Assembly: GCA_003218975.1 (NCBI GenBank)
Contig: QHPD01000113.1
Location: 1-55,596, forward strand
Direction of reading: 5' to 3'
DNA length: 55,596 bases
Origin: Verrucomicrobiota bacterium
Lineage (GTDB): Bacteria; Verrucomicrobiota; Verrucomicrobiia; Chthoniobacterales; UBA10450
Positions 1-3,824 of this stretch are shown in pieces. The translations under genes and the position numbers were made by a program. The stretch's first letter is position 1. The number at the start of each line of letters is the position of its first letter. Below the pieces are notes generated by a model that was given only the letters and a program-made list of their open reading frames with translations, did no database searches and had not been told where the DNA came from.

Positions 1-476
1 ATCAACTGGCGGCAGTTGTCCGCCGCCTCGCGGGACGGCGGAAAAATCTCAAACTTAATGGAATCCTCCGGGTCAAGAAGGAGACGCGCGTAACGTTGCG
101 CTGTTGGGTCTTGCTGCGGGTCGCCCAGTTCATTGACCAAGACGCCGCCCGGATGCGCCGGCAAACTGATCATTTCGCGCAAGAGCCGCGATGCCTCCTC
201 AATTTCATCTTCCTCAATGGCGAGCACTGCATCGCTATAAAAACTGAAGGCGAGAGGCGAGACCGGTCGGCTCTCGAGCTCATTTAGAAACTTTTGAAAC
301 TGTTCCGACGGAACTTGCAGCAGCCCGTTCCCCTGTTCCCAAATGTGCCGGAGGCTGTCGGCCAGCCGGGACCGCATGCGCTGGTCAAGAAAACGAACGC
401 GCTCAGCACTCGGCTCGAAGCTATGCAGGCCTTCGAACCGTGGGCTCTGTACCGGAGTCGTAGCGGTGGAATTCAT
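1..476 (-). CDS. Unrecognised soluble protein, C-terminus outside window
   Basis: An open frame runs from an ATG at 476 to the window edge, giving 158 residues without a stop. The frame looks coding: composition is balanced, with acidic stretches such as AIEEDEIEEAS and a late segment LPAHPGGVLVNELGDP. No signal peptide, membrane segment or catalytic motif that I recognise is visible, so I give no function. There is no strong Shine-Dalgarno before the ATG. It points the same way as the small-protein array upstream of it, about 108 bases away, and may be part of that locus. Plus-strand frames over this interval are shadows. Confidence 0.7.
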   Translation of the reverse strand, partial: MNSTATTPVQSPRFEGLHSFEPSAERVRFLDQRMRSRLADSLRHIWEQGNGLLQVPSEQFQKFLNELESRPVSPLAFSFYSDAVLAIEEDEIEEASRLLREMISLPAHPGGVLVNELGDPQQDPTAQRYARLLLDPEDSIKFEIFPPSREAADNCRQL

Positions 477-584: not shown

Positions 585-740
585 TTAAAGTCGCTTTTTG
601 GTCCCTGGTTTGCTGCCAATCTTTGCCTCTATCAACGCCTTAGCAGATTTCGATTTTAGGTCGCCCTGAGCGACCTTGACTTGGCTAAACCCCAGCAGTT
701 TGCCCCAATTGAGGTCGATGCGCCTATTTCTAAGTTTCAT
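585..740 (-). CDS. Array small basic protein, copy 1 (type B), 51 aa
   Basis: This is the last member of a four-copy paralogous array. The protein opens MKLRNRRIDL, followed by the family core NWGKLLGFSQVKVAQ and a Lys/Ser-rich tail. It is strongly basic and has no signal peptide or membrane segment. The ATG at 740 is preferred over the upstream frame start at 782 because similarity among the four copies begins exactly at this Met, and because a promoter-like sequence occupies the bases just before it. It is closest to copy 3: both have VKVAQG followed by D/E-LKSK. The function is unknown; a cationic peptide, a nucleic-acid binder or a peptide substrate of the nearby ATP-grasp enzyme are all possible. 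Confidence 0.8.
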   Translation of the reverse strand: MKLRNRRIDLNWGKLLGFSQVKVAQGDLKSKSAKALIEAKIGSKPGTKKRL

Positions 741-748
741 CGAGCGGC

Positions 749-778
749 TTTTTAGCAAGCCACTGCACCGATTGTCAA
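749..778 (-). promoter_or_regulatory. Promoter of array copy 1
   Basis: On the minus strand there is TTGACA (778-773), an 18-base spacer ending TGC, then TAAAAA (754-749), an extended -10-like box. Only 8 bases separate it from the ATG at 740, so transcription should start at or next to the start codon. An AT-rich tract lies just upstream of the -35 box. The same layout precedes all four copies. Confidence 0.65.
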
Positions 779-873
779 GCAATGATGCAAAAATATTTCA
801 AATTTGGATTGTCGCACCAATCCACACAGCATTGAGATCTTGCAGAAGCGAAGTCTTAGCGAAGAAGAGGATA

Positions 874-1029
874 TCAAGTCACGGATTTAAGCCCCTCTTT
901 GACGCCAAGCTTCTGGCCGATCATTGCTCTAGCGGATTTTAATGTTGGGTTGTTCTGAGCGGCTTTGACCTGGCTAAAGCCTAACAGTCTCCCCCAATTG
1001 AGCTTGATACGTTTTTTTGTGGCTTTCAT
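874..1029 (-). CDS. Array small basic protein, copy 2 (type A), 51 aa
   Basis: This member opens MKATKKRIKL and carries the core NWGRLLGFSQVKAAQ, followed by a tail ending in VT. It matches copy 4 best, sharing KSARAMIGQK and the pattern GVK.GLK.VT, and is less like copies 1 and 3. The start at 1029 is set by alignment with the other copies. There is no Shine-Dalgarno; the preceding bases are a promoter-like TTGACA/TAAGAC pair. It has diverged somewhat more than the others (G to R in the core, QNNPTL after it) but remains intact, which suggests selection to keep the frame. No function is recognised. Confidence 0.8.
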   Translation of the reverse strand: MKATKKRIKLNWGRLLGFSQVKAAQNNPTLKSARAMIGQKLGVKEGLKSVT

Positions 1030-1036
1030 TGCGCGC

Positions 1037-1066
1037 GTCTTAGCAATTCGCCGCATCAACTGTCAA
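1037..1066 (-). promoter_or_regulatory. Promoter of array copy 2
   Basis: TTGACA (1066-1061), an 18-base spacer ending TGC, then TAAGAC (1042-1037), with 7 bases to the ATG at 1029. It is the weakest -10 match of the four, but the spacing is the same as in the other copies. Confidence 0.55.
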
Positions 1067-1148
1067 GCACCATCAAGCGTCGTGCAGCGTCGCGCAGAAT
1101 CTACACACCCCGAGTCTCGCAGAGAGATACCTTCGGGAAGAAAAGAAT

Positions 1149-1292
1149 TTACCGTTTGATGATGCCAACCTTCGGGCCGCCGACCATTGCTTTAGCGACC
1201 TTAGATTTTAGTTCGCCCTGAGCGACCTTAACTTGGCTGAACCCCAGCAGTTTCCCCCAATTGAGTTTAATGCGCTTATTTGTAAGTTTCAT
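1149..1292 (-). CDS. Array small basic protein, copy 3 (type B), 47 aa
   Basis: This member opens MKLTNKRIKL with the core NWGKLLGFSQVKVAQ. The tail is shorter than in the other copies and reads KAMVGGPKVGIIKR. Up to about residue 35 it is very close to copy 1. The start at 1292 is chosen by alignment and by the promoter-like sequence directly upstream. It contains a Gly-Gly pair (VGGP), but the other copies lack one, so I do not read it as a conserved leader-cleavage site. It is soluble and basic with no recognised domain. Confidence 0.8.
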   Translation of the reverse strand: MKLTNKRIKLNWGKLLGFSQVKVAQGELKSKVAKAMVGGPKVGIIKR

Positions 1293-1300
1293 ATCGACGC

Positions 1301-1330
1301 CTTTTAGCAATCCGCCGCACCAATTGTCAA
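1301..1330 (-). promoter_or_regulatory. Promoter of array copy 3
   Basis: TTGACA (1330-1325), an 18-base spacer ending TGC, then TAAAAG (1306-1301), with 8 bases to the ATG at 1292. Similarity to copy 1 continues about 30 bases beyond the -35 box into an AT-rich stretch, as expected if the promoter was duplicated together with the gene. Confidence 0.65.
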
Positions 1331-1425
1331 GCAATCGCGGAAAAAAATTTAAATCTGCGGCTTTGCCACAGAAGCTACGACGTCCCTGAGTCCTGGGGAA
1401 CAGTAACTTTCCGCAAAAAAGGATT

Positions 1426-1581
1426 TCAGGTCACCGGTTTGAGACCAGTCTTGACGCCAGCCTTCTGGCCAATCATTGCTCTAGCGGATTTCGATTTTGG
1501 GTCGCCCTGAGCAGCTTTGACCTGGCTAAAGCCCAACAGTTTGCCCCAATTGAGTTTGATGCGCTTATTTGTAGTTTTCAT
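1426..1581 (-). CDS. Array small basic protein, copy 4 (type A), 51 aa
   Basis: This is the first member in the direction of transcription. It opens MKTTNKRIKL, then NWGKLLGFSQVKAAQ, then a tail with KSARAMIGQK. I count ten Lys and two Arg against one Asp, so it is very basic. An N-terminal segment KLNWGKLLGF could form a short amphipathic helix. The start at 1581 aligns with the other copies. The ATP-grasp gene begins 50 bases away on the other strand, so the two share a divergent control region. No family known to me matches. Confidence 0.82.
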   Translation of the reverse strand: MKTTNKRIKLNWGKLLGFSQVKAAQGDPKSKSARAMIGQKAGVKTGLKPVT

Positions 1582-1589
1582 AGAGGTCG

Positions 1590-1619
1590 GTTTTAGAGGA
1601 TTGGCAGCATAATTGTCAA
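1590..1619 (-). promoter_or_regulatory. Promoter of array copy 4
   Basis: TTGACA (1619-1614), an 18-base spacer, TAAAAC (1595-1590), then 8 bases to the ATG at 1581. It lies inside the short region between the array and the divergent ATP-grasp gene, whose possible -10 box CATAAT (1608-1613, plus strand) overlaps it, so the two directions may compete. Confidence 0.6.
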
Positions 1620-1631
1620 GCAAACACTCCG

Positions 1632-2591
1632 ATGATTCGTTTTCTGGTCAGCCGCGGCCATGGTTACACACATGAGTGTTTGCACAAGACCCCTCAAGCA
1701 CCAGCAACGAGCCTGATGACTTATGATCAATTGCTGCGGTCGCGCTGGCTGCGGCGAGCAACGTACGTGTTTGCAGATATCGATCGGCTGAGTTTTTGGG
1801 ACCTCGAGCTTGCGGCCCACGCATACCTTGAGATGCAACGGCTGGGACTGAGCGTCTTGAACAATCCAGCGAAGGTGAAAACGCGCTATGCTCTGCTACG
1901 CGCCTTATACAGAGCGGGTCTCAATGATTTCGACGTTTACCGCGTCGATGAGATCAATTCTTCAATTCGTTTCCCTGTCTTTGTTAGAAGAAACCAGCTC
2001 CATGATGGCCCTATGACCGATTTGCTGCATTCCGGCCGGGAATTGGAAAACGCAATCGCAACTGCGGTAAACGGCGGCACACCGATGGAGAATTTGGTCG
2101 TAATCGAATTCGCAGCCGAACCTGTCCGGCCAGGCCTGTACCGCAAGTTGGGGGCCTATCGTATCGGCGACGTGATCGTGCCAACTGTCAGCGCCCATGA
2201 CACGGTATGGCTTACCAAACATGGGCAACTCGGCATCGCAGGAGAGGATCTCTATCGCGACGAGCTGACTTTGATGCAAACAAACCCCTTCGCTGAGCAT
2301 TTAAAGAAAGTATTCGAGATTGCAGGGATCGAATATGGCCGGGCTGACTTCGGCATCTACAACCGCCGAGTCCAGGTTTACGAAATCAACACGAATCCCA
2401 TGATAAACCAGCCAATGCCTCACCCCTTTGCCGCTCGCCGGGAAAGCATCCGACTTTGCTGGGAGAATTATCTGGAAGCCCTGCGCGCTTTGGATAGCGG
2501 CGGCGGCTGGCCCGTTCGGTTATCCAATGGGACGCTGCAGCCTCGCCGCTTGCGGACGAATCTTTTCGTGCGCACCCGACCGACCGCGTGA
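1632..2591 (+). CDS. ATP-grasp family ligase
   Basis: This 319-residue protein ends its fold with the ATP-grasp signature: RADFGIYNRRVQVYEINTNP at about residues 236-255, in which the Glu and Asn of EINTNP would bind Mg-ATP. Before it come FPVFVRRN (nucleotide-binding strand; Arg where Lys is usual) and VVIEFAAEP. ATP-grasp enzymes join a carboxylate to an amine, hydroxyl or thiol through an acyl-phosphate, often on amino acids or peptides. The length fits RimK-like and RiPP-modifying ATP-grasp enzymes. The substrate cannot be read from sequence. It diverges from the array of small basic proteins, which makes them candidate substrates; that is inference. The start is ATG 1632 with no clear Shine-Dalgarno. 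Confidence 0.75.
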   Translation: MIRFLVSRGHGYTHECLHKTPQAPATSLMTYDQLLRSRWLRRATYVFADIDRLSFWDLELAAHAYLEMQRLGLSVLNNPAKVKTRYALLRALYRAGLNDFDVYRVDEINSSIRFPVFVRRNQLHDGPMTDLLHSGRELENAIATAVNGGTPMENLVVIEFAAEPVRPGLYRKLGAYRIGDVIVPTVSAHDTVWLTKHGQLGIAGEDLYRDELTLMQTNPFAEHLKKVFEIAGIEYGRADFGIYNRRVQVYEINTNPMINQPMPHPFAARRESIRLCWENYLEALRALDSGGGWPVRLSNGTLQPRRLRTNLFVRTRPTA

Positions 2592-2701: not shown

Positions 2702-3676
2702 CTACTTCAGATAAAGTGTGCGCGTGCCGAAATCGATAATGCCATGATGCCGCTTGAGGATTTCGGCACCTAGCAGGCCGGCGACCGGCCGCGAACCCTG
2801 CAACAGCCCGCTGTGAATCAGGCCTCCCAAATCAACTACGCCCACTTCCTTGCCAACGATGTCCACGGATCCTACCGATAACTTGCGAATCCGGGCCACG
2901 CCCACACCGCGCTCCTTGAGATTGACTGCGGAAGAACTAAACGGCGTGTCGCGAGTAGGGATTCGCATGCGCCGGACGAAAGAGCGATGCAGCAAAGTGG
3001 CGAACGAACCGGTATCAACCATTAGCCTGGCGGGCTCGCCGTTCACAGATCCGTTCACGTACAAATTAAAACCATCGCTGACCTGAATCGGCACAGCACG
3101 CAATCCGCGATGGTCGATCCCTGGAGCGCTGCCAGTACTATTCTGGTCAATTTTCAAGATGAGCAGTTGCCGTTCGCAATCCAACACGGCTTTCGTTGGG
3201 AAGAGAACATCGGCGCCAATTATGCCGTCGATTTCCTGCTCGTGCCGCGATCGGGCGAGGCGGGTGGTATTCCCAAGATTGATGGTGACAATCGGCTCAT
3301 CCACCAGTCTCAAGGCCCCGAGCCGAAACTCGCGCGCGATCGCCACCTTGCTGAATGCGCCATTGATCTGAACTTGCGCCGGCAGGTTCGATTTGGCCGC
3401 AATTGGCGTGAGCCGAAAATATTCGCGGCGATGCACGGCGATCGCGCTTACCGGCGCGCCAGTATCGACTCCGAGCCACGCTGGTCGGCCATTGATGTAG
3501 GCGCGCACGAGCAGATGGTTTTGTCGCGAACGCATCAACGGCAGCGCTTCGAAACGGAGGGTTGTACGCGCAGCGGCAGCGGGCTGCTGGGCAGCAGGCA
3601 ATTCGGCGACCAGCGCGGCGCCCGCGCATAAGATCGACAAAAACTTCCGCAGCGGAGAGAAAGGATCCGAAAACAT
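2702..3676 (-). CDS. Exported two-lobed retropepsin-like aspartic protease
   Basis: The protein has about 324 residues. An N-terminal hydrophobic segment (FLSILCAGAALVAELPAA) looks like a signal peptide. Two aspartic-protease motifs follow, VDTGAPVSAI near residue 72 and MVDTGSFATLL near residue 220. Each lobe closes with the matching late strand, DGIIGADVL and AGLLGAEIL. Both catalytic Asp residues are present, so one chain could form the pepsin-like pair that retropepsins assemble by dimerising. It is probably periplasmic; the substrate is unknown. The ATG at 3676 is preferred to the GTG immediately before it. It converges on the ATP-grasp gene, and no partner is obvious. Confidence 0.82.
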   Translation of the reverse strand: MFSDPFSPLRKFLSILCAGAALVAELPAAQQPAAAARTTLRFEALPLMRSRQNHLLVRAYINGRPAWLGVDTGAPVSAIAVHRREYFRLTPIAAKSNLPAQVQINGAFSKVAIAREFRLGALRLVDEPIVTINLGNTTRLARSRHEQEIDGIIGADVLFPTKAVLDCERQLLILKIDQNSTGSAPGIDHRGLRAVPIQVSDGFNLYVNGSVNGEPARLMVDTGSFATLLHRSFVRRMRIPTRDTPFSSSAVNLKERGVGVARIRKLSVGSVDIVGKEVGVVDLGGLIHSGLLQGSRPVAGLLGAEILKRHHGIIDFGTRTLYLK

Positions 3677-3824
3677 CACGCGGCGGAGATTAGCATGGTT
3701 CTTTTTGCAGGAAAGCGCTTTCGCGCTTCAAGTGCTTTGAAAGGAAAATGGGGCGAACAAATCTTTGGCGTTGCTTCATCCGCCTGACTGATGATTAACT
3801 CTCCGCCAATCCAAGGGGTTCAAC

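Follow-up and report, generated by a model that had tools for sequence, protein, structure and literature searches.

Tandem genes for small lysine-rich peptides in a Verrucomicrobiota genomic island, best read as an aKG-HExxH locus of RiPP type, unusual in its precursor array and its partner ligase

The stretch of DNA analysed here (the window, 55,596 nucleotides), from a soil bacterium of the Verrucomicrobiota, corresponds to contig C73 in an assembly of 3.06 Mb, in which the four small peptide genes described below are the only copies of their family. These genes and their neighbours are as follows.

3 to 476, minus strand: aKG-HExxH peptide beta-hydroxylase gene, N-terminal 158 codons, assigned by homology and cut by the contig end
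585 to 740, minus strand: candidate precursor peptide copy 1, 51 aa, subtype B (ORF, alignment, dN/dS)
741 to 778, minus strand: predicted promoter of copy 1, TTGACA-18-TAAAAA-8-ATG, 0 expected by chance
874 to 1029, minus strand: candidate precursor peptide copy 2, 51 aa, subtype A (ORF, alignment, dN/dS)
1030 to 1066, minus strand: predicted promoter of copy 2, TTGACA-18-TAAGAC-7-ATG
1149 to 1292, minus strand: candidate precursor peptide copy 3, 47 aa, subtype B (ORF, alignment, dN/dS)
1293 to 1330, minus strand: predicted promoter of copy 3, from the upstream sequence pattern
1426 to 1581, minus strand: candidate precursor peptide copy 4, 51 aa, subtype A (ORF, alignment, dN/dS)
1582 to 1619, minus strand: predicted promoter of copy 4, from the upstream sequence pattern
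1632 to 2591, plus strand: probable divergent ATP-grasp-like ligase, 319 aa (co-occurrence, motif, weak structural match)
2702 to 3679, minus strand: retropepsin-like aspartyl protease (PF13650, E 4e-19), island-edge neighbour

A preliminary description of this DNA had reported four frames of 47-51 codons with a common motif, and both the open reading frames and their alignment confirm them. All four peptides have MKxxNKRIKLNWGKLLGFSQVKxAQ in common. They were said to be strongly basic with one Trp, and the composition is as described: each of the four has a net charge of +11, one Trp and no Cys, and copy 4 contains 12 Lys/Arg and one Asp. Net charge ranges from +7 to +12 among the array peptides. 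The proposal that an A-B-A-B order arose by duplication of a pair also holds. Copy 4 lies exactly 552 nt from copy 2, as copy 3 does from copy 1, and a single gapped alignment spans the whole pair, spacers included, from which it follows that a two-gene unit was duplicated. Coding identity is 82% for copies 4/2 and 78% for copies 3/1, compared with 65-77% for the other pairs. In a tree that includes the copies from AV68, a metagenome-assembled genome of the same genus, copies 4/2 and 3/1 fall into separate groups, each of which also has AV68 members; support is 87 for the main split and low elsewhere. This topology suggests that the two subtypes predate the split of the window genome and AV68.

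The frames had been described as kept open while the spacers diverged, and this as implying selection. At the 552-nt offset, identity is mostly 0.67-0.9 in bins within the frames and 0.33-0.6 in the spacer. An open frame is by itself weak evidence for selection, as 6-8% of shuffled copies keep theirs open by chance; the coding status of the peptides is instead based on codon pattern, homologues and promoters. Among the four window copies dN/dS is 0.20-0.40, well below 1, and differences by codon position are 0.20, 0.23 and 0.35, highest at third positions. Equal rates of synonymous and nonsynonymous change combined with frame breaks in relatives were not found: one of the eight AV68 relatives is frame-broken (L018:3141-3298), as expected from birth and death of copies. 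The four array genes are real and under purifying selection.

Every copy for which upstream sequence is available has TTGACA or a near match at a near-constant distance 5' of its ATG, the commonest layout being TTGACA-18-TARRAN-8-ATG. Exact matches to this pattern number three in the window and another three in the AV68 locus L018, against 0 expected by chance. An upstream TTG start was considered and rejected, since several copies have in-frame stops shortly 5' of the ATG, which is therefore taken as the start. With so short a predicted 5' end, the messages may be nearly leaderless, each carrying a single peptide gene.

The peptides had been described as belonging to no recognisable family. 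No match was found in Pfam, NCBIfam or the PDB, none above noise in PHROGs, and no ribosomal or phage family was matched. A viral origin was rejected because no relative is present among IMG/VR viral contigs, and a defence system because there was no PADLOC match.

Directly downstream of the array, on the same strand, lies the truncated gene at 3-476, whose product shares 51% identity with the beginning of the AV68 protein encoded at L019:448-1362 and 45% with its relative at L080, a locus of another family of the order. The AV68 gene adjoins the same array and is a full-length relative of the window gene. Its product matches TIGR04267 (E 8e-24; 84.6 bits against a curated cut-off of 40), a profile that likewise identifies the L080 relative as an aKG-HExxH peptide beta-hydroxylase; the window contains the homologous N-terminal part only. 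Aligned to ChlH (8s5f), the AV68 enzyme retains both HExxH and PSPxRxDxRPxxGxxHA. The catalytic half was found nowhere in the window genome assembly (G000); we infer that the domain is intact in the strain itself. A same-strand aKG-HExxH gene stands directly 3' of all three array loci (window 3-476, L018 from 3967, and L019 448-1362).

Published members of this family add hydroxyls to Asp, His, Gln, Pro and Phe of RiPP precursors (PMC12636437, PMC13060819). That aKG-HExxH enzymes are hydroxylases is a recent finding. Because the gene on this side of the array belongs to that family, we place the locus with RiPP-type peptide modification. It had been suggested that the peptides are substrates of the nearby ATP-grasp enzyme, which comes near to our best reading but misses the key partner, the HExxH enzyme, encoded on the other side.

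The peptide family is present in two of the 213 genomes of the order, namely the window genome and AV68, whose loci L018 and L019 are on QHNV contigs and hold seven intact copies and one broken copy. Weak matches in two further genomes (G019, G056) were lost when the profile was improved. The same two genomes, out of 35 in the genus and 213 in the order, also have the ATP-grasp-like ligase. The AV68 island shows birth and death of genes: its ligase gene is duplicated with one copy broken (L018:472-1234), and the beginning of a second HExxH gene is present (L018:3967-4187). Between the HExxH and NTP-transferase genes of AV68 there is in addition an HTTM-domain membrane protein gene (L019:1787-2701; PF05090, E 3e-7), for which the corresponding gap in island-free genomes is too short.

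The retropepsin gene is matched in 33 of the 35 genomes of the genus. In the island-free genomes examined it lies about 70-900 nt from the NTP-transferase gene; in AV68 the array, ligase and HExxH genes are found between the two (over two contigs), and in the window the array and ligase are on one and the same side of the retropepsin gene. This arrangement of neighbours across genomes identifies the array, ligase and HExxH genes as an accessory insertion in a conserved setting. Unrelated small frames occupy the same spot in other genomes, and since the cargo of the gap differs within the genus it looks like an insertion hot spot. Frames seen in the retropepsin/NTP-transferase gap at L062-L073 include GFA-like, PH-like and 'GALAIGA' repeat proteins. 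The retropepsin was considered as a dedicated leader protease and set aside as genus-wide and so not specific; it is probably not part of the peptide pathway. The part of the island that can be seen yielded neither a dedicated protease nor a dedicated transporter.

An insertion site with varied cargo, together with the basic composition of the peptides, would fit small intracellular proteins, for example binders of nucleic acid or the ribosome, that sit in a variable island with the HExxH and ligase genes as passengers. We regard this as very unlikely: the same neighbours recur in both genomes and in the duplicated arrangement of AV68, and presence in 2 of 213 genomes makes a core cellular role unlikely. 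Nothing beyond charge supports the nucleic-acid binder that had been put forward earlier.

Surveying the order with TIGR04267 gave four genomes above the cut-off. L080 and L081 come from two further families of the order, and at both loci the ORF immediately 5' of the HExxH gene contains D/N-x-x-K/R-L-L-G-F-x-Q. These ORFs open with RIELDASRLLGFKQSKEARAG or KKMDRAKLFGFAQVEKVK, and their tails are unlike those of the array peptides. The peptide profile scores 17.5 bits on the L080 ORF, against 7.1 bits for the best of 2,000 shuffles, and 9.8 bits on the L081 ORF, against a shuffle maximum of 6.8. When 2,943 stop-to-stop frames were scanned blind, the L080 ORF was the sole outside match with E<0.01; the L081 frame, at E 0.33, is weak by score alone and is counted because of its position before an HExxH gene. 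A common enzyme family and N-terminal motif combined with a different C-terminus is, on this comparison, the behaviour of a RiPP leader. The plasmid HExxH loci of Pantoea and Xenorhabdus have no ORF with the motif, which is therefore not general to the enzyme family.

Two of the outside loci have features of their own. The L080 leader-motif ORF (L080:2448-2699, G078 contig C20) has a PEP-CTERM-like tail (PEPSTWVELLLGF; NF035944 E 3e-4, below cut-off), and its product is possibly a membrane-sorted HExxH substrate. At L093:7947-10529 (G119 contig C159), directly 3' of a leader-motif peptide and an HExxH gene, an 860-aa gene encodes a protein that by eye resembles an NRPS-like adenylation - carrier - thioesterase arrangement, a different possible partner enzyme.

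Within the array family itself the N-terminus is conserved and the tail variable, as in leader/core precursors. Pooled dN/dS is 0.18 for the N-terminal 25 residues and 0.54 for the remaining tail, and entropy is 0.65 bits over those 25 residues versus 1.1-1.3 bits over the rest. This division bears on whether the peptides are instead unmodified, bacteriocin-like cationic antibacterials whose charge acts on competitors while the enzymes serve some other purpose. Their net charge, short length, multiple copies and diversified tails are what such peptides would have, but the conserved part is the N-terminus, common to peptides preceding other HExxH genes, charge leaves the strict tie to a peptide-modifying enzyme unexplained, and no export signal was noticed; we consider it an improbable account.

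On the other side of the array, and transcribed away from it, is the ligase gene (1632-2591), whose product is 80% identical between the window genome and AV68. It has no Pfam or NCBIfam match, and none at E<=10 was obtained for any of 10 relatives, a negative to be read knowing that superfamilies so divergent may escape profiles. Assignment to ATP-grasp by sequence failed, with no significant match in Pfam, a PDB profile search or hhalign against RimK. Foldseek alone on the model gave nothing significant. In a second structural look, made with a poor model (pLDDT 39), nearly all of the best 50 rows were ATP-grasp proteins (Z 5.5-6.8), among them Ddl, RimK, LysX, PsnB (Z 6.3) and cyanophycin synthetase; the model gained nothing from a deeper alignment. 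A C-terminal D-x11-E-x-N motif is kept. The fold comparison and motif make it likely that the gene encodes an ATP-grasp enzyme. Distant relatives occur on Deinococcus and Paracoccus plasmids and on IMG/VR contigs, so the ligase family is wider than the peptide pathway. The IMG/VR relatives (L026, L027, L084, L089, L090, L091) are about 31-35% identical, and at L026 and L027 they adjoin apparent phage structural genes, as an enzyme of putative phages would.

An ATP-grasp-like gene beside multi-copy precursors of leader/core layout recalls the graspetides (microviridin, plesiocin/PsnB, corallotide). Read strictly in that way, the ATP-grasp enzyme would form side-chain macrolactone or macrolactam rings within the core, with secondary hydroxyls coming from the HExxH enzyme; PsnB is among the structural rows, and corallotide is a hydroxylated graspetide (PMC13097080). 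The cores do not follow the graspetide pattern of several Asp/Glu acceptors with Ser/Thr/Lys donors. Tails have 0-2 acidic residues, most copies one; from column 26 onward one copy has none, and position 27 is acidic (D/E) in 9 of 11 peptides and not in the other two. With no acidic acceptor set conserved, side-chain rings of this type are unlikely, and the ligase is not detectably related in sequence to those of graspetides or to other known ATP-grasp families, leaving a strict graspetide highly improbable.

We think it probable that the array encodes RiPP precursors, each a conserved leader joined to a diversified, lysine-rich core, which the HExxH enzyme hydroxylates and the ATP-grasp-like one modifies; the substrates, the order of the steps and the ligase reaction are inferred. 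Raw material for modified peptides is the most likely role because genes with the same front end directly precede HExxH genes in relatives. No more than two genomes have the complete set. The first ~25 residues would be the leader, whose D/N-x-x-K/R-L-L-G-F-x-Q block would recruit the modifying enzymes, and the variable lysine-rich tail of ~22-28 residues the core. The HExxH enzyme, whose gene begins at 476 (minus strand), would hydroxylate residues of the peptide, and the ATP-grasp-like enzyme (1632-2591) would activate a carboxylate to give an ester or amide. With no acidic side chain common to all cores, the ligase would most likely target the C-terminal carboxylate. A predicted strong promoter precedes each precursor gene, and divergence of the tails after duplication would yield a family of related products. 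Export and leader removal may be carried out by genes elsewhere or in the unseen part of the island.

The locus resembles characterised aKG-HExxH RiPP systems (ChlH, PflC/PosC, BpmH, PesO; TIGR04267) insofar as the enzyme is of the same family, by profile and ChlH active-site block, and a small precursor with conserved leader and variable tail adjoins its gene. It differs in that no radical SAM, MNIO or YcaO partner was noticed, an ATP-grasp-like ligase being present instead, and in that the precursors, Cys-free and rich in Lys, lie in tandem, each copy with a promoter-like site of its own, and have no curated-profile match. RimK/LysX-type ATP-grasp ligases add residues to the carboxylate of a protein or carrier protein. 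The ligase described here is similar to them in predicted core and C-terminal D-E-N motif, but has no detectable sequence similarity, and no LysW-like carrier was noticed. We found no paper in the open-licence literature describing the pairing of HExxH and ATP-grasp enzymes; an earlier account elsewhere is possible.

Our best reading is thus a locus of the aKG-HExxH RiPP type that is unusual in its precursor array and its partner ligase. We suggest, more tentatively, that it may stand for a RiPP class without a description in the open-licence literature searched, in which individually promoted, tandem, Lys-rich and Cys-free LLGFxQ precursors are acted on by an HExxH enzyme and by a hitherto unassigned ATP-grasp subfamily working on the C-terminus; the leader would be shared across families, with cores exchanged and the partner enzyme being an ATP-grasp-like ligase, an NRPS-like module or neither.

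The peptide natural products of Verrucomicrobiota have been little explored. What was an orphan array of basic micro-genes becomes a testable pathway, with precursors, a recognition motif, two enzymes and a genome island. AV68 provides a complete HExxH gene and a ligase for cloning, and the leader motif is a handle for mining the Verrucomicrobiota.
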